A stretch of DNA of 64,000 bases, taken from contig NZ_RPEN01000158.1 of NCBI RefSeq assembly GCF_003991405.1, positions 372,001 to 436,000 on the forward strand, read 5' to 3'. Below the pieces are notes generated by a model, which saw nothing but the letters and a program-made list of their open reading frames with translations, did not search any database and was not told the DNA's origin. The DNA is from Pseudorhodobacter sp. E13. GTDB taxonomy: Bacteria > Pseudomonadota > Alphaproteobacteria > Rhodobacterales > Rhodobacteraceae. Position numbers and translations under genes: made by a program. Positions 1,774 to 10,455 of the stretch are shown here, in pieces (position 1 is the stretch's first letter; the number at the start of each line of letters is the position of its first letter).

Positions 1774-2553
1774 ATGGCTGAATATCAAACTATCAATTCG
1801 GTCGGCGCAGGCACCCGCACCGCGCAGATCGATGCTGGCCTTCGGGCCCATATGAACAAGGTCTACGGGCTGATGTCGATCGGCATGTTGCTGACGGGGG
1901 CCGCCGCTTGGGCGATTTCCGGGCTGGCTGTGACGACAGACCCCGCGCTGGCAACGGTGCAGATGGGCAATGGCATGATGCTGACCAGCCTTGGTCAGGC
2001 GCTGTATCTTTCGCCGCTGAAATGGGTGGTGATGTTTGCCCCGCTCGTCATGGTCTTTGCCTTTGGCGCTGTGATCAACCGTTTGTCCTATGGCGCGGCG
2101 CAGCTGTTCTTTTACGCCTATGCGGCGCTGATGGGCGTGTCGCTGTCCTCGATTTTTCTGGTCTATACCGGCACCTCGATCGCGCAGACCTTCCTGATCA
2201 CCGCAATCGCCTTTGCGGGTCTGTCGCTGTATGGCTACACCACCAAGAAGGATCTGTCCGGCATGGGCACCTTCCTGATGATGGGCCTGATCGGCTTGTT
2301 CGTGGCGATGATCGTGAACCTGTTCCTCGCCTCCTCGGCGCTGGCCTTCGCGATTTCGGTGATCGGCGTGCTGATCTTTGCGGGTCTGACCGCCTATGAC
2401 ACGCAGTCGATCAAGAACGAATATATTGCCCATGCCCAGCATGGCGATAGCGAATGGTTGGGCAAGTCGGCGATCATGGGCGCGCTGCGTCTGTATCTCG
2501 ACTTCATCAACATGTTCATGTTCTTGCTGCAATTCCTGGGCAACCGCGAATAA
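1774..2553 (+). CDS. Bax inhibitor-1/YccA (YbhL-like) family inner-membrane protein
   Basis: The 259-residue product has a roughly 30-residue polar N-terminus and then about seven hydrophobic segments, the layout of the BI-1/TMBIM family. The C-terminal part GLTAYDTQSIKNEY and LYLDFINMFMFLLQFLGNRE-like end are typical of bacterial YbhL/YccA proteins. GGAGG lies 7 bases before ATG 1774. Bacterial members are linked to membrane protein quality control (YccA with FtsH) or to proton/calcium leak; which applies here is not shown. The gene stands alone and ends at a strong terminator. Confidence 0.9.
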   Translation: MAEYQTINSVGAGTRTAQIDAGLRAHMNKVYGLMSIGMLLTGAAAWAISGLAVTTDPALATVQMGNGMMLTSLGQALYLSPLKWVVMFAPLVMVFAFGAVINRLSYGAAQLFFYAYAALMGVSLSSIFLVYTGTSIAQTFLITAIAFAGLSLYGYTTKKDLSGMGTFLMMGLIGLFVAMIVNLFLASSALAFAISVIGVLIFAGLTAYDTQSIKNEYIAHAQHGDSEWLGKSAIMGALRLYLDFINMFMFLLQFLGNRE

Positions 2554-2579
2554 GCGGATGATCCGACGGAAATAAACGG

Positions 2580-2608
2580 AAAGGCCGGGGCAAAACCCCG
2601 GCCTTTTT
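2580..2608 (+). terminator. Rho-independent terminator after the BI-1 gene
   Basis: AAAGGCCGGGG, loop CAAA, CCCCGGCCTTTTT. The stem has A and T runs on both sides, so it could act in both directions between the convergent BI-1 and GNAT genes; the GNAT stop codon overlaps its edge. Confidence 0.85.
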
Positions 2609-3123
2609 CATGGCGAGAGGATGCAAACCATCCGCACCGAAGGAAACAGGGTGCCGCCCGGCAGTTGCACGTCTTCTGCGGCCAGCACCGCAAACCCCAT
2701 CGCCTGATAGAAGGGCACGGCGGTCAGGGTGGACAGGCAGCCCAGACGCTGCATCCCTGCCGCCCGTGCCTCATCCATCACCCGCTGCATCAAGCTGCGC
2801 GCAATGCCAAGGCGCAGGCAGTCTGGATCGGTGGCCACATGGCGGATATGACCCATTTCGGGATCGGTTTCTTTGGCCGAAGGGTCGTTCTGCGTCCAGC
2901 CCCCTGCCCCAACAACCCTGTCACCGCGCAAGGCCAGCCAATAGGTGCCACAGGCCAACAGCTCGGGCCGTGCGCGGGTGATGCGTGGCAGCGCCACAGA
3001 CAGCAGCTCGGGCGCGTAGGACGCGGCCAGCAACGCGGGATAGCTGCGCGCCAGCAAGCCATCTACAGCGGCCTGATCTGCGGGTGTGGCGGGGCGCAAG
3101 GAAAGCATCTGTTGGTCTGTCAT
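2608..3123 (-). CDS. GNAT-family N-acetyltransferase
   Basis: The 171-residue product carries the GNAT acetyl-CoA site: VATDPDCLRLGIARSL (R-x-x-G-x-A pattern) around residues 95-110, followed by the helix RVMDEARAAG and the C-terminal strand/loop VPFYQAMGF. It probably acetylates a small molecule or protein amine; the substrate cannot be told. ATG 3123 (MTDQQML) is preferred over TTG 3129. It is transcribed from the spacer that also holds the rpmG terminator. Confidence 0.85.
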   Translation of the reverse strand: MTDQQMLSLRPATPADQAAVDGLLARSYPALLAASYAPELLSVALPRITRARPELLACGTYWLALRGDRVVGAGGWTQNDPSAKETDPEMGHIRHVATDPDCLRLGIARSLMQRVMDEARAAGMQRLGCLSTLTAVPFYQAMGFAVLAAEDVQLPGGTLFPSVRMVCILSP

Positions 3124-3165
3124 GGTCAAACCCCAAAGCGTTTCCGGATTTCATTGAAACAACGC

Positions 3166-3213
3166 ATCGCCAATATCCCGAGAGCGCCGCAGGCGTGGCA
3201 GGGTATTGGCGAT
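3166..3213. other. Imperfect 48-nt stem-loop between GNAT and rpmG
   Basis: ATCGCCAATATCCC (3166-3179) and GGGTATTGGCGAT (3201-3213) are complementary except for one bulged base, and the loop holds a second small stem (GCGCC/GGCGT). It sits 42 bases upstream of the GNAT start codon. Function unknown; it could be a leader structure or a degenerate palindromic repeat. Confidence 0.4.
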
Positions 3214-3236
3214 TCAACTTTAACTGGAAATGCTGT

Positions 3237-3270
3237 GAAAACAGAAAAAGCCGCACCAACTGGTGCGGCC
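3237..3270 (-). terminator. Rho-independent terminator of rpmG
   Basis: On the minus strand GCCGCACC-AGTT-GGTGCGGC is followed by TTTTTCTGTTTT. It begins 27 bases after the rpmG stop codon. Confidence 0.9.
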
Positions 3271-3296
3271 CTGTCTTTGGTCCGGTATGGCAGATC

Positions 3297-3464
3297 TTAC
3301 TTGATCTTGCCTTCCTTATACTCAACATGCTCACGCTTGACCGGGTCATACTTACGCACAACCATCTTTTCGGTCATGGTGCGGGCATTCTTCTTGGTCA
3401 CATAGAAGTGCCCGGTGCCCGCCGTCGAGTTCAGACGGATCTTGATCGTCGTCGGCTTCGCCAT
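3297..3464 (-). CDS. rpmG: 50S ribosomal protein L33
   Basis: The 55-residue basic product begins [14 protein letters not shown] and contains [16 protein letters not shown] and the C-terminal [12 protein letters not shown], all diagnostic of L33. It lacks the CxxC pairs of zinc-binding L33 paralogues, so it is the zinc-independent form. It is a structural component of the large ribosomal subunit near the E site. GGAGAAA lies just before ATG 3464 and an intrinsic terminator follows, so it is probably a single-gene transcript. Confidence 0.97.
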
Positions 3465-3639
3465 AGTCGTTTCTCCTGCAGCCCGAGCCCGATTTGGCCC
3501 GGTGAAATTCTAATGAGGCTGCCTTTTACCCGCGCGGGGGGCAGAGTCAACTGGCAATCGGCAGATTTTCTGGGGATCGGCTATCAAAATGAACGCCTGC
3601 GGCGTAAGCCTTGTTTTTTGGGCGCTCCGCGCCCGTTTG

Positions 3640-3672
3640 CCTCCGGCGGAGGTATTTTTGCCAAGATGAAAT
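3640..3672 (+). repeat. Dispersed hairpin/T-tract element, copy B
   Basis: CCTCCGGCGGAGG, then TATTTTTG, then CCAAGATGAAA on the plus strand. No plus-strand gene precedes it. It lies 11 bases beyond the 3' end of rnpB and antisense to it, so it cannot terminate rnpB; it may stop antisense transcription. Confidence 0.6.
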
Positions 3673-3682
3673 CAAGGGGGAA

Positions 3683-4100
3683 ATGCGCGGATGGCCTGTA
3701 AGCCGGATTTTGTTCCGGGAGTTGCCTCCCTTCGATGACCATTCCTCTGGCCCCAGTGTTACCACTGGGGTCTAGCTGCCAACCCGGGCCTCTGGGCTGA
3801 AGCGTCCCTGCGGCGGTATTGGTTGCCCAACCTGCCCGCGTGAGGCCCCTATTCGGCATTGCTCCGGGTGGGGCTTGCCTTGCCATCCGTGTTGCCACGT
3901 CTGCGGTGGGCTCTTACCCCACCGTTTCACCATTGCCCCGACATGCGAGGCGTTCTCTTCTCTGTGGCGCTTTCCCTTGGGTTACCCCAGCCGGGCGTTA
4001 CCCGGCACCCTTGCCTCATGGAGTCCGGACTTTCCTCGCATGGTGCGGTTTCCCTTGCGGGACTACGAACCACACGCGGTCATCCGGCCATCCGCGCGTG
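3683..4100 (-). ncRNA. rnpB: RNase P RNA (bacterial class A)
   Basis: The minus strand shows the hallmark 5' block GAGGAAAGTCCGGACTCC (complement of about 4021-4038) and, near the 3' end, AAATCCGGCTTACAGGCC (complement of about 3694-3711). The two ends form P1: GCGCGGATGGCC (complement of 4087-4098) pairs with GGCCATCCGCGC (complement of 3685-3696). The length, about 415 nt, fits. It is the catalytic RNA that matures tRNA 5' ends. Its 5' end is only about 8 bases past the stop codon of the upstream amidase gene, so its promoter must lie inside that gene or it is cotranscribed. Exact ends are estimated from P1. Confidence 0.95.
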
Positions 4101-4107
4101 GTGGGGC

Positions 4108-4773
4108 TTACGCCTGTGGCGCGCTTTGGTCAACGCCAAAGCGTTGGGCGAGGTTTTGCGCAAGGGCGGCATCTATCGCATCCAGCGGGCCGCGCGCCCA
4201 AGGCCGAAAGCGCAGGCGGAAGGCGGTGAGCAGCTGGTCCGGTGCGGCGGGGTAGCCGAAAGCTTGGGCATGGGTGGCAAAGGTAGCGGGGTCGCCCTGC
4301 CCTGCGGCCTCGGGCCAGACAGAGAGCCCGCCGCGCGCGAGGCGGTGCCAGTCAAATCGCGCGCCGGGGTCGGATTTGCGGCCCGGTGCCATATCGGAAT
4401 GGCCGAGGATCGCCTGTGGTGGGATCGCCCAACGCGCCATGACGCCTGCCAGCAGCGCCTCCAGCGCCTGCATCTGCGGCTCGGCAAAGGGTTCGAACCC
4501 GTCATTCGCCAGTTCGATGCCGATGGAACGGGAATTCATGTCCGTCAGCCCCCGCCAGGACCCCGCCCCGGCATGCCAGGCGCGGGCGTCCTCGGGCACC
4601 AGGCTGTGCTGGGTTCCGTCATAGTCGATCAGATAATGGGCCGACACCTCATAGGCCGGGTCGCACAGCCTGTCGACCGCGGCGGCACAGCTTTCCATCG
4701 CGGTGTAATGGATCACCACGAATTCTGGCCGCAACCCATCCCGCCGTTCACCAAAATTGGGCGACAGCGGCAT
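4108..4773 (-). CDS. N-acetylmuramoyl-L-alanine amidase (AmpD-like, Amidase_2)
   Basis: The 221-residue product has the AmpD active-site set: H22 (VVIHYTAM), E87 (IGIELAN), H125 and D135 in GHSDMAPGRKSDPG, with K133. The 10-residue H-to-D and 8-residue H-to-K spacings match AmpD. It cleaves the lactyl-L-Ala bond of muropeptides in cell-wall recycling. No signal peptide is visible, so it should be cytoplasmic. It follows the lipoprotein gene by 6 bases (likely one transcript) and its stop codon almost touches the rnpB 5' end. Confidence 0.92.
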   Translation of the reverse strand: MPLSPNFGERRDGLRPEFVVIHYTAMESCAAAVDRLCDPAYEVSAHYLIDYDGTQHSLVPEDARAWHAGAGSWRGLTDMNSRSIGIELANDGFEPFAEPQMQALEALLAGVMARWAIPPQAILGHSDMAPGRKSDPGARFDWHRLARGGLSVWPEAAGQGDPATFATHAQAFGYPAAPDQLLTAFRLRFRPWARGPLDAIDAALAQNLAQRFGVDQSAPQA

Positions 4774-4779
4774 GAGCGA

Positions 4780-5523
4780 TCAGCGCAGCGCGTTGCGGAA
4801 GGGGCGCGGGTCCCATCCGCAGGCGAAACCGTCGCCATCCGGGTCCAGCCCTTCACGGTCCTTATCGGGACCGCCTTTGGCCAAGAACGCCTCTTGCGCC
4901 AGATCAGGCGAAGCGTATTTGGCGCAGGTGATCAGCGGGTCCTTTTGGAACAGGCTGCCGCGCTTATACATCTGGGTGCCGGGGGCGTGGGTGGTCGCAA
5001 GCGCGAATTGCACGATATTCGGGCCGTTGTCGCCGCTGCGCTGTGGCAGGGCCGTGGGGGCGACCACCTCATATTGTGCGCGCTGGCGGGCCAGACGTTC
5101 GGCATCGCTTTCGATGGTTTCGCGGGCGGCAACGGCGCTGAAATCCTGCTCGTCGGAAATGCCGGTGCTGCGGCGCATCTCGCCCGATTCTTCCTTGATG
5201 CCGATGGGGGCGCCGCCACGCGGACGGGTGCCCGCAGGTGACGCGGTGGTGGTGCTGGCCGGGTCCTGGCCAATCACCCGGCCCGTGGGCACGGCTGTCC
5301 GGCCTTCGGCATTGTCGATCGCGGCGGCAGCGGTTTCGGTCGAGAACACAGGCTGCGCCGGGGTTACTGCGGTCAGCGGCTGGCCTGCGCCTTGCTGTGC
5401 CGCCTCACGCTGGCGCACATATTCCGAGTAATCGCCAAAGCCGACCCCTGCCCCGGAATCCGGAACAGGCGTCGAACAGGCGGCGAGGGCCAGAGCGGCC
5501 GTCAAATATTTAAGCGATTTCAT
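4780..5523 (-). CDS. Lipoprotein with Excalibur-like C-terminus
   Basis: The 247-residue product starts with a lipoprotein signal ending LAAC (Cys16). The middle is low-complexity, rich in Ala/Thr/Pro. The last 60 residues are better ordered: PLITCAKYASPDLAQEAFL and then GLDPDGDGFACGWDPRPFR, which resembles the Excalibur motif (DxDxDGxxC), a calcium-binding-like fold of extracellular proteins. With the amidase directly downstream, an envelope or peptidoglycan-related role is plausible but not shown. Confidence 0.75.
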   Translation of the reverse strand: MKSLKYLTAALALAACSTPVPDSGAGVGFGDYSEYVRQREAAQQGAGQPLTAVTPAQPVFSTETAAAAIDNAEGRTAVPTGRVIGQDPASTTTASPAGTRPRGGAPIGIKEESGEMRRSTGISDEQDFSAVAARETIESDAERLARQRAQYEVVAPTALPQRSGDNGPNIVQFALATTHAPGTQMYKRGSLFQKDPLITCAKYASPDLAQEAFLAKGGPDKDREGLDPDGDGFACGWDPRPFRNALR

Positions 5524-7678: not shown

Positions 7679-7805
7679 ATGTCAAACGATATCCCCCCGT
7701 ATCCCCGCTGCATCCGTGTTCTTCACCGTGACCCTAGCCGCGCGGGGAACGGAAATTTTGGTCCAGCATATCGACGCGTTGCGCGCCGCCGTGCGCAGCA
7801 AATGA
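7679..7805 (+). pseudogene. REP-associated tyrosine transposase (RAYT, IS200-like) remnant
   Basis: The stretch after ATG 7679 begins MSNDIPPYPRC in one frame; after about codon 13 the frame must shift to read VFFTVTLAARGTEILVQH and DALRAAV, which is the N-terminus of RAYT proteins (a tyrosine transposase family that usually has FFTV near residue 15-20 and HIDxLRxA next). It stops at TGA 7803-7805 after about 42 codons, so the catalytic domain is missing. It ends 27 bases from the last gene of the ATPase/PIN-like module, suggesting that module or a deletion removed the rest. Confidence 0.65.
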
Positions 7806-7832
7806 GGCTGTTAAATCCCCCATTTAGGCATA

Positions 7833-8288
7833 CTAATCCACCAGTTTGGCGCGTACTCTAGCATAAGATAATTCATTGCCTATGACACTAAAACGCAAAA
7901 ATGTAGCATCAACGCAACCTGAAAGGCAATCCCGACAACGCGCCATGCGATTATCCTTTGAAAAAACGTAGCGGGCAGGAAGTGCTCTAACCAAAGAAAA
8001 GGTATGACTATCATCACAACAGCCTGAATTTGAAACCCAAGCCTTTGAAGAGATCAATTCGTCATGAAAGCGTTCGATGGTCGCTTGGTGGGCGTCATCT
8101 CTACGCTTCATTTTCCCCATCAACACAAAGAATTCAAGCGCGGCTCGTTGTTTCCGAAGCTCAATCTGCTCTTTTGGCAATCCACCATATGCAAATCGAA
8201 CCTTATTGCTTCGAACTAGATCCCTTCTAATTTGTACGAACCAACTTTCCCCAAACATGTGAGGATCAATAATTACGCGAACTGTCAC
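7833..8288 (-). CDS. PIN-like domain protein, partner of the adjacent ATPase
   Basis: The 151-residue product shows spaced acidic residues in a PIN-like order: D8 in VRVIIDPHMF, D92/D93 in CCDDSHTFSLVRA and D112 in YVFSKDNRM. In PIN nucleases the second and third motifs look like DDxHxxALA...ARxLxTxD, which fits well. A metal-dependent RNase or nickase activity is therefore inferred, not shown. Its ATG overlaps the ATPase stop by 4 bases. The DNA is clearly AT-richer than the flanks, a sign of transfer. Cys residues (90, 91, 118, 121, 125) cluster around the last motif and might bind a metal. Confidence 0.6.
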   Translation of the reverse strand: MTVRVIIDPHMFGESWFVQIRRDLVRSNKVRFAYGGLPKEQIELRKQRAALEFFVLMGKMKRRDDAHQATIERFHDELISSKAWVSNSGCCDDSHTFSLVRALPARYVFSKDNRMARCRDCLSGCVDATFLRFSVIGNELSYARVRAKLVD

Positions 8289-9550
8289 AACATCGTCCTT
8301 AACATTTCATCAACAAAGAAGGTATGAAATGCATCCGGCTCGCCGCTAAGCGCACCATTATGCTCGATGTCTACTTCATACGCAGTGTTCCCTTCCGGTC
8401 CATTCTCACAAAACAAGATCAGAAGGTCTTTAGGCGATGCAAGTTCCTCCGCGTCGATCTTCAAATCATTCTGGTCTCGCAAATCTGAACGGAATCTATC
8501 TATTAAGAAGGAACTATGTGTTTCGAGTATGCCTCTCAACCCGTCGCGATACGATCTATGGAAGAAACTTCCAAGCGCTGCTTGAGCCACCGGGTGAAGA
8601 TGCAATTCAGGCTGCTGAACAAGGATCGCTAGTTTTGGCTTATTTCTGAGTGCGTATACAGTCTCAACCAAGATTGGCACGACCTGCGAAACGCCAACTC
8701 CGACTTGGTTAAGGAAGAACTCTTTATTTGACTTCACCACCGAAACAATTAGAGGCGAATCTGGAACTCTAGACGATATTTTTTTTACTTTTATGTCCTC
8801 AAATAACCCACTCTCCAAGCCAAAAGCACGCACCGCATCAAAATTAAACTTTGATTTGAGTCCTGAAAAATCATGCCACATCGGTGCGAAATGCAACCCA
8901 AGAGCGGTGATCTTTCTACTTGCCGAGTAAAATTTTTCGGGCAGCGCTCTAATCGGTGATATGAGTCGAGCACCACTAATTTCACCAAATATCCGGTCTA
9001 GAAAGGCGTTTCCGTCTTTTATTTTATCATATGGAATCAAGCTAAAAATAATTGTTGGTTCGCCGAACGAAATACCCCTTGGCGGTCTGCCCGAGAGATT
9101 AAAGCCAGTAGTCTCGTTGTGCAGTTCAATGATACGATGGAAACCAACATCATCTACATCACTAATGATTCGAGCCTGCCCAGCGGAAGGAGTTTTTTTA
9201 CAAGTGATCAGAGTTCTATTGGTAAGATAGGAGCATCTTATTATTTCTGGAGGCCTATCTTTTCTGTTCTTAACTGTTACCACTTTACAGAAAAAATCTT
9301 CACCTACACCCGTTGAGAAACCAAAAGTCACATCCGCAGAACCGAAATATGGCGAGAAATAATCGTACTCTCCCACTCCAAGTTCTTCATTTAGCACCGG
9401 TGGAGAGCTTAATCCACCCCTGAGAACGCTGTCAACTAGGTGTAAAATTGAGCTCTTGCCCGAGCTGTTATCACCAACAAGGAAAACTAATTTCTCTAAA
9501 TCAACTTCGATCGCCCTAAAGCCTCTAAAGTATTCAGCAAAAACCTTCAC
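8285..9550 (-). CDS. AAA_15/AAA_21-type ATPase (OLD/DUF3696-like)
   Basis: The 421-residue product has a Walker [10 protein letters not shown] at 27-34, a family-typical [13 protein letters not shown] at 196-208, a signature-like [14 protein letters not shown] at 281-294, Walker [13 protein letters not shown] at 309-320 and an H-loop [11 protein letters not shown] at 343-353. This is the SMC/ABC-like ATPase fold of OLD, PARIS AriA, Septu PtuA and DUF3696 proteins. There is no TOPRIM domain at its C-terminus, so a nuclease activity would have to come from the PIN-like partner. GTG 9550 overlaps the thyX TGA (GTGA). AT-rich DNA suggests horizontal acquisition. Confidence 0.85.
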
Positions 9551-10455
9551 CCCTCAACCACTCCCATAAACTCCCGCCACTCGCCCTTGCTCATGCCGGA
9601 ATTCTCCTGCGTCACTTCCTCACCTTTAAGCATTCTGCGAACACAATCAATCGCTTTTGACGAGAGTGTCGCCCCGCCCATCCGGTAATCCTCAAACGCC
9701 GCAAATGCGATGGGCACCCAGTCGGCCACCACCCGGCAGATCGCCTCGGCGTAAACGCGGATTTCATATTGCGCGTGGGCGTCGGCGCGCAGGCGGAGGA
9801 AGTGGAAGAGGTTGTGCAGGTCCACCTTCCAATACCATTGGGTGTAGATATTGGCGGGCAAGTTCATGCGGGCGAGTTCGCGGGCGAGGCCTTGCTGGCC
9901 GTCCTGGCTTAGCATCGCCTCGTAATGGTCATAGGCGGTGTTCGAATCGCGTTTGAGCATTTCCAGCACGCGGGCGGCTTCCTCCCCCGTCAGAACCTCG
10001 CCCCGGCCTTGGTTGTTTACCACAGATTGTGCCGCCAGTTGCTCGGGCGCGGGGATGTAAAACTCGCGGTCGAGGATGGAATAGCGGGCGGAATATTCGT
10101 TGACGTTGGCGGTGCGGTGGCGGATCCATTGGCGCGCGACAAAGACCGGAAGTTTGACGTGCAGCTTGATTTCGCACATCTCGAACGGGGTGGAATGCCA
10201 GTGCCGCATGAGGTAGCGGATCAGCCCTTCGTCATTGGAAACATGTTTGGTTCCAGCACCATAGCTGACGCGGGCGGCCTGCACGATGGCGGCATCATCG
10301 CCCATGTAATCAATGACCCGGACAAAGCCGTGATCCAGCACCTCATGCGCGTGGTAAAGATGCGCCTCCATCCCTTCGGACACCGCGCGCAGGGTCGGTT
10401 TCGGCGTCGCGCGCTGCGCTGCGATTTCGGCAAGTTGGTCCGGGGACAGGGGCAT
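9547..10455 (-). CDS. thyX: Flavin-dependent thymidylate synthase
   Basis: The 302-residue product carries the ThyX motif [19 protein letters not shown] (RHRx7S) plus the active-site region [20 protein letters not shown] and [15 protein letters not shown]. It makes dTMP from dUMP using FAD, NADPH and methylene-tetrahydrofolate. The DNA is GC-rich and native-looking, unlike the ATPase gene coupled to its 3' end. The leader contains a nested inverted repeat reaching to the start codon. Confidence 0.96.

Follow-up and report, generated by a model that had tools for sequence, protein, structure and literature searches.

Several bacterial defence systems join an ATPase to a separate nuclease, and in two of them, PARIS and Septu, the nuclease (AriB and PtuB, respectively) acts on transfer RNA (tRNA), as stated in two papers (PMC12409363; PMC13096335). 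For the PIN systems DS-3 and DS-5, another paper reports that catalytic residues are required for phage defence (PMC13092281). Pairs of an ATPase and a PIN protein are also on record. A 2026 paper on BREX reports that alternative nucleases, PIN endoribonucleases among them, accompany OLD-ABC ATPases in 594 taxa, and refers to ATPase-nuclease couplings reported earlier in ABC-ATPase-anchored systems (PMC12839542). HEC-03, a candidate system in PADLOC, consists of an AAA_15/DUF3696-type ATPase (456 amino acids (aa) in locus L011) with a PIN-like protein of 161 aa encoded behind it, and antiviral activity in assays is reported for several HECs, including HEC-06 (PMC12988326). Here we describe a pair of this general build in a 64,000-nucleotide (nt) stretch of DNA from Pseudorhodobacter sp. 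E13 (contig NZ_RPEN01000158.1, positions 372,001-436,000, forward strand), hereafter called the window, in which genes for an ABC ATPase and a small PIN-fold protein follow thyX.

An earlier reading of this DNA from its letters alone (the sequence-only reading) had described an OLD/AAA_15-type ATPase without a TOPRIM domain whose gene overlaps thyX on one side and the gene for a protein with PIN-like acidic motifs on the other. Its coordinates, strand assignment and both 4-nt overlaps proved correct (Table 1), the overlap of the thyX stop with the ATPase start being GTGA. We consider it probable, with moderate confidence, that the pair is a horizontally moving two-gene anti-phage module in which the ATPase gates a PIN ribonuclease (RNase).

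The evidence that carries this reading begins with the pairing itself. In all 11 loci of the subfamily (the window; L015, L016 and L017/L022; L023-L027; L029 and L030), the ATPase and PIN genes are immediate neighbours that keep one order and share a strand, and at the junction they either overlap by up to 4 nt or leave a gap of at most 1 nt, so that the co-occurrence on which the sequence-only reading depended is borne out. The family was opened by an ATPase-based search and then extended with alignments. When the window ATPase was used as a single sequence against viral contigs, two relatives were found (40% and 37% identical), each with a small gene directly behind it that is homologous to the small gene of the window, and alignment-based searches then reached a third viral contig. 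ATPase scans led to eight loci, all with a PIN gene behind the ATPase, and PIN searches led to five loci besides the window, all with an ATPase in front; three contigs are common to both sets. Five records, with the titles Rhizobiaceae, Bartonella, Rhizobiales, Ensifer and Shinella, came from a collection of genomes from 84,980 species. Used as a single query, the small protein had no relatives among viral contigs, plasmids or phage records, and two weak partial matches to it in genomes of the class (L002 and L003) were not counted as relatives.

The small protein is predicted to adopt a PIN fold (predicted local distance difference test (pLDDT) score 89.8), as the sequence-only reading had anticipated from its acidic residues. 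In the structure comparison the top places go to Nmd4 and VapC, and the nearest PIN folds, judged by their titles, belong to RNA-decay proteins or toxins, among them Nmd4, VapC, SMG6 and protein-only RNase P. In PIN nucleases the acidic residues lie where strand 1 ends, within an early helix, ahead of a later helix and behind a later strand, and the predicted model combines the fold with this four-acid layout. All 11 aligned homologues have D8, E43, D92 and D93; D112 is kept in ten and replaced by E in the eleventh. Candidate zinc ligands are C91, H95 and C118, each found in 11 of 11, together with C121, which is variable. Sequence models are silent on this protein: Pfam gives a single meaningless match (0.14) and no HNH domain, PADLOC gives no family at E-values up to 1, AriB included, and NCBIfam gives no match.

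A different substrate can be envisaged for such a nuclease. If the PIN protein acted on DNA, the pair would resemble Septu- or Gabija-like restriction: the ATPase would recognise replication structures or the ends of phage DNA, and its partner would nick DNA. We think this rather unlikely, given the RNA-decay and toxin proteins among the nearest folds. In addition, an RNA ligase gene follows the HEC-03 ATPase-PIN pairs of L032 and L033 (Pfam RNA_ligase 9.1e-31 in L032), which suggests RNA cleavage and repair for HEC-03.

The ATPase matches the Pfam families AAA_15 (E-value 2.5e-17) and AAA_21 (5.6e-9), and a Pfam scan at E-values up to 1 found no TOPRIM domain, the C-terminal nuclease domain of the OLD family. 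In the predicted model the ATPase fold covers residues 1 to ~417 of 421, and along its length it resembles SMC/Rad50 heads and the PtuA proteins of Septu and of retrons Eco7, Ec78 and Ec83. K32 of Walker A, which the sequence-only reading had singled out, is invariant. The Walker A and ETHS motifs are present in 11 of 11 module ATPases, and a signature-like motif pattern is matched in ten. The Walker B region is distinctive. Its first place is Q in ten of the 11 module ATPases and in both of two sister ATPases, which together form one clade in the tree, and the complete QQPE occurs in 12 of these 13 proteins, whereas all 15 other ATPases compared have E at the first place (EQPE in 12, ENPE in two, EEPE in one).

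The surroundings of the pair indicate mobility. GC content over the two genes is ~42-46%, compared with ~57-64% in the flanking kilobases, and this base composition, the presence of relatives on phage contigs and a cargo hotspot at thyX (see below) support a foreign origin, in line with the gain by transfer proposed earlier. On one viral contig (G781, L015) the pair adjoins a T7-type RNA polymerase gene (PHROG E-value 1.2e-267) near one end, and an integrase match lies towards the opposite end. On a second (G782, L016) it adjoins a primase-like gene, and a weak integrase match falls below the curated cut-off of its family. The third (G783, L017) has no integrase match, and its viral label is doubtful near the pair because a glyoxalase gene and other host-type genes are present. 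Elsewhere, resolvase genes lie near the pair (L024 and L025), and the pair is found behind a dprA-type gene with a phage integrase ~4 kb off (L025), between mfd- and mnmA-type genes (L056) or before thrS (L027).

Settings of this kind might also be expected of superinfection-exclusion cargo, which a prophage would carry to protect its lysogen for the benefit of the phage and which chromosomes would have captured later. Two viral contigs with phage genes and integrase matches, together with the phage integrase of L025, are in keeping with that idea; nevertheless, eight of the 11 loci come from genome assemblies (the window, L023-L027, L029 and L030), two of these at thyX, and we regard it as improbable. 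The same diversity of neighbours bears on a housekeeping role, or one in thyX-linked nucleotide metabolism. Such a role would fit the translational overlap of the pair with thyX, seen in two genera (the window and L055), but at other loci the pair sits by mfd/mnmA-type genes, thrS, a dprA-type gene or phage genes, and relatives in the genus of the window hold other genes at thyX, which makes this the least probable explanation that we considered.

The second thyX-linked copy, in a genome of another genus (G480; L055/L029), has the identical GTGA overlap. Simple vertical inheritance of this copy and that of the window is not favoured, because the two ATPases are 40% identical and do not group as sisters in the tree, where support for the separating fork is only 84/90. 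A genome from the same genus as the window (G774; L058) matches it on both flanks and has HicA- and HicB-like genes between them in place of the ATPase-PIN pair. This amounts to a natural swap, with common flanks and different cargo.

Because G774 has other cargo at this site and G480 a divergent pair, we surveyed 75 thyX loci of the window's family, each with at least 600 nt downstream. The set, which is not a random sample, comprises the window and G480 themselves, near relatives, and the best-scoring thyX places from a search that detected thyX in 230 of 295 genomes. Loci with less than 600 nt after thyX (L040, L043, L072 and L091) and an outgroup (L049-L054) were left out, as was L067 (644 nt; GC 0.61 versus 0.64, no drop). 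GC falls by at least 0.08 in the 600 nt after thyX at 42 of the 75 loci (42 of 76 if L067 were included). Where both sides are available, the drop is seen downstream in 19 of 35 loci and upstream in none of the 35 (Fisher p 1.3e-7). Two of the loci, the window and G480, had been known as carriers beforehand, and without them the counts are 40 of 73 downstream and 17 of 33 for the loci with both sides. At 26 of the 42 GC-drop loci a same-strand open reading frame (ORF) starts within the interval from 39 nt ahead of the thyX stop to 10 nt past it, as judged by mechanical ORF calling with a search that began 40 nt before the stop.

The cargo was scanned for 35 of the 47 listed ORFs, leaving out the three genes of the window and L055 and nine short or doubtful ORFs; matches are counted as members per family, and one member may match several. 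Pfam identified HicA (three members), HicB (three) and TIR_2 (two), with single members for PIN_12/PIN_8, GmrSD_N, HSDR_N, HEPN_RiboL-PSP, Mrr_cat, RelA_SpoT, DUF4062, YaaC and others. PADLOC matches include ThsB (L096, 2.2e-85), TIR-type models (L092), NsnA, PD-T4-2_A and several PDC candidates, and sequence reading places HicA/HicB-type cargo in L039, L130 and L134. The 3' end of thyX is thus a cargo hotspot in the family of the window, with defence and toxin-antitoxin types among its cargo. A narrow literature search found no earlier report of it, which is thin ground for novelty.

Examples of AT-rich cargo at this site are L039, L047, L055, L069, L089, L092, L096, L106 and L119. In L047 a different PIN gene stands directly behind thyX. 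L045 and L079, from different genera, carry related cargo proteins of ~215 aa (37% identical over 182 aa) that have a hydrophobic stretch at the N terminus and match nothing in PADLOC; this is possibly an undescribed defence gene. The idea that thyX serves as an integrase attachment site was unsupported. The final 70 nt of thyX and a further 12 nt were set against 0.9-4.5 kb of downstream sequence in 22 loci including the window, and no conspicuous repeat of the thyX end emerged: only L057 beat the highest of ten shuffles, by one point, in a test that did not extend to other recombinase signs.

In the window, the far edge of the cargo cuts a reading frame on the opposite strand, which ends where the AT-rich DNA starts. 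This is the transposase remnant of the sequence-only reading, and we presume it to be a REP-associated (Y1-type) transposase. The truncation and the recurrence have held up: homologues lie 3' of thyX at three other loci (L058, L104 and L128), and the G774 copy (L058; 76% identical over 37 aa) continues beyond the cut point. The family assignment has fared less well, as Pfam finds no family in the frame or in one longer homologue. This transposase-like frame may take part in cargo exchange. On the other side of the pair from thyX lie gatC and then an amidase (gatA-type) gene.

Table 1. Positions of the features discussed, numbered within the window or within the named locus.
Feature	Sequence	Position	Strand	Remarks
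thyX (Thy1)	window	9547-10455	-	Pfam Thy1 7e-57
ATPase gene, 421 aa, GTG start	window	8285-9550	-	ABC/AAA_15-type; SMC/Rad50/PtuA-like head; no TOPRIM
Walker A GDNSSGKS, residues 26-33	window	9452-9475	-	K32 invariant in 11 aligned homologues
Walker B region QQPE, residues 312-315	window	8606-8617	-	E at first place in related ATPases elsewhere
PIN-fold gene, 151 aa, GTG start	window	7833-8288	-	acidic set D8, E43, D92/D93, D112; conserved C91, H95, C118
AT-rich inserted cargo between thyX and G774-shared flank	window	7806-9549 (edges approximate)		GC ~42-46%
Truncated reading frame at far cargo edge	window	7690-7805 (approx.)	+	homologues at three other thyX loci
Homologue of truncated frame	L058	6701-6949	-	downstream of thyX
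Homologue of truncated frame	L104	1928-2047		downstream of thyX
Homologue of truncated frame	L128	2207-2347		downstream of thyX
Different PIN gene	L047 (genome G780)	2415-3359		PIN_12, 1.2e-24
Cargo protein gene	L045	2414-3049		related to L079 cargo
Cargo protein gene	L079	839-1498		related to L045 cargo
DUF3696 ATPase + HEC-03A-type PIN gene, then RNA ligase gene	L032 (Azotobacter plasmid)	2215-4833		HEC-03A 9.2e-28
DUF3696 ATPase + HEC-03A-type PIN gene, then RNA ligase gene	L033 (Aeromonas plasmid)	2221-4849		HEC-03A 2.1e-24

The pair might be a toxin-antitoxin-like addiction module, in which a VapC-like RNase is neutralised by the ATPase and which maintains itself or a prophage with no sensing of phage. 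The proximity of the PIN fold to VapC-type proteins and Nmd4, the HicA- and HicB-type genes at the thyX site in relatives (three members each) and the integrase matches on two of three viral contigs would all suit this arrangement. However, no small VapB-like partner is present, the partner being a large ATPase, and the retention of Walker A and ETHS in every module ATPase, and of the signature-like motif in all but one, exceeds what an antitoxin would need. Many defence-type genes are also found among the hotspot cargo, and an addiction module therefore seems to us unlikely, albeit the strongest of the rivals weighed here.

For an anti-phage module, we propose a mechanism by analogy with PARIS and Septu, whose nucleases act on tRNA. 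The ATPase, an ABC head of the SMC/Rad50/PtuA-like type, would serve as an ATP-bound scaffold that forms a complex with the small PIN nuclease and keeps it inactive. A phage trigger would alter this scaffold such that the PIN protein is freed or activated, and the activated protein would then cut RNA, most likely tRNA, and thereby stop the infected cell and protect against the phage. The copy in the window probably rides on thyX by coupled translation, having no promoter-like site of its own; a simple scan of the minus strand in the thyX-ATPase interval revealed none, which is weak evidence.

A bolder proposal, which we hold only tentatively, is that the pair represents a separate class of ATPase-gated PIN RNase defence. 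In such a class QQPE, with glutamine at both acidic places, would make the ATPase an ATP-binding lock or a sensor of nucleotide levels with little hydrolysis. The pair would be one cargo of a previously unreported defence hotspot at the thyX 3' end in Rhodobacteraceae, which has no obvious recombinase and rotates genes that are expressed through overlap with the thyX stop.

Several observations weigh against an ATPase-gated anti-phage module. Foldseek alone gives no match to the PIN model at an E-value of 0.001 or below, the best being Nmd4 at 0.014. ATP hydrolysis is uncertain because the Walker B motif is atypical. A position at thyX is seen for only two of the 11 loci, and the contig of L017 does not include its upstream side. 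PIN relatives were found in three of 390 genomes of the window's order, its own included; a PIN profile run on 385 genomes of the class matched the genome of the window and none of the other 384, and tblastn found no PIN relatives in plasmid and phage records. The subfamily is therefore real but rare. Finally, among remote ATPases outside the clade, the cases read include some with PIN-like partners (L005, L006, L011, L013, L032, L033 and L037) and others with different partners (for example L007, L012, L014, L031 and L034), the partners of L009 and L010 having been read only in part. The PIN pairing thus holds for the clade and not for the whole ATPase superfamily.

If the anti-phage reading is correct, the pair would add a PIN effector branch to the ATPase-plus-nuclease systems with tRNA-acting nucleases, such as Septu, PARIS and retrons, and the ATP site of the QQPE ATPase offers a testable oddity. 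Within a large bacterial family, the 3' end of thyX is a place to search for new defence genes, and any AT-rich gene there that overlaps the thyX stop is a candidate.

Known systems resemble the pair in part. The best PADLOC match of the ATPase is NsnB of Menshen (2.1e-28, best stretch 269-409), with HEC-03B (1.6e-22) behind it; AriA matches at 2e-19 and PtuA at 3.5e-10. Menshen differs in that its NsnA and NsnC could not be accommodated here: the interval from thyX to gatC contains only two genes, neither of them NsnA or NsnC, and the PADLOC scan was confined to that interval. PARIS shares an AAA_15-type ATPase and a nuclease, tRNA-acting AriB according to PMC12409363, but AriB is of the TOPRIM type whereas the partner here is a PIN protein. 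Septu and the PtuAB retrons share a PtuA-like ATPase; their nuclease, however, is the HNH protein PtuB in the same paper, and the match to the PtuA model is weak. VapBC differs in its partner, which in all 11 loci here is an ABC ATPase of ~420 aa instead of a small DNA-binding antitoxin.

The closest relatives are the known ATPase-PIN pairs, and the sequence-only reading, which did not recognise the combination as a named one, was right in part: the build itself has precedents in HEC-03 and in the OLD-ABC pairs, and the subfamily stands apart from HEC-03. The OLD-ABC pairs of PMC12839542 have PIN in place of TOPRIM and are reported beside BREX; the same architecture, an OLD-type ABC ATPase gene beside a PIN gene, is found in all 11 loci, and the comparison with those pairs is one of architecture only. 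HEC-03 was judged by its PADLOC models. The HEC-03A model does not match the small protein of the window (E-values up to 1) or those of L029 and L030 (up to 0.01), whereas it matches L011, L013, L032, L033 and L037 (4.7e-42 to 1.5e-22), so the model works. A comparison of the two PIN-group profiles aligns only 10 columns (probability 3%), the ATPases fall into separate supported clades (forks 99/98 and 100/100), and HEC-03 ATPases carry EQPE where those of the window type carry QQPE. Judged from their sequences, the members of this subfamily differ from known ATPase-PIN pairs in clade, PIN type and Walker B motif, and they appear to add a new QQPE variant to a build that was already known.
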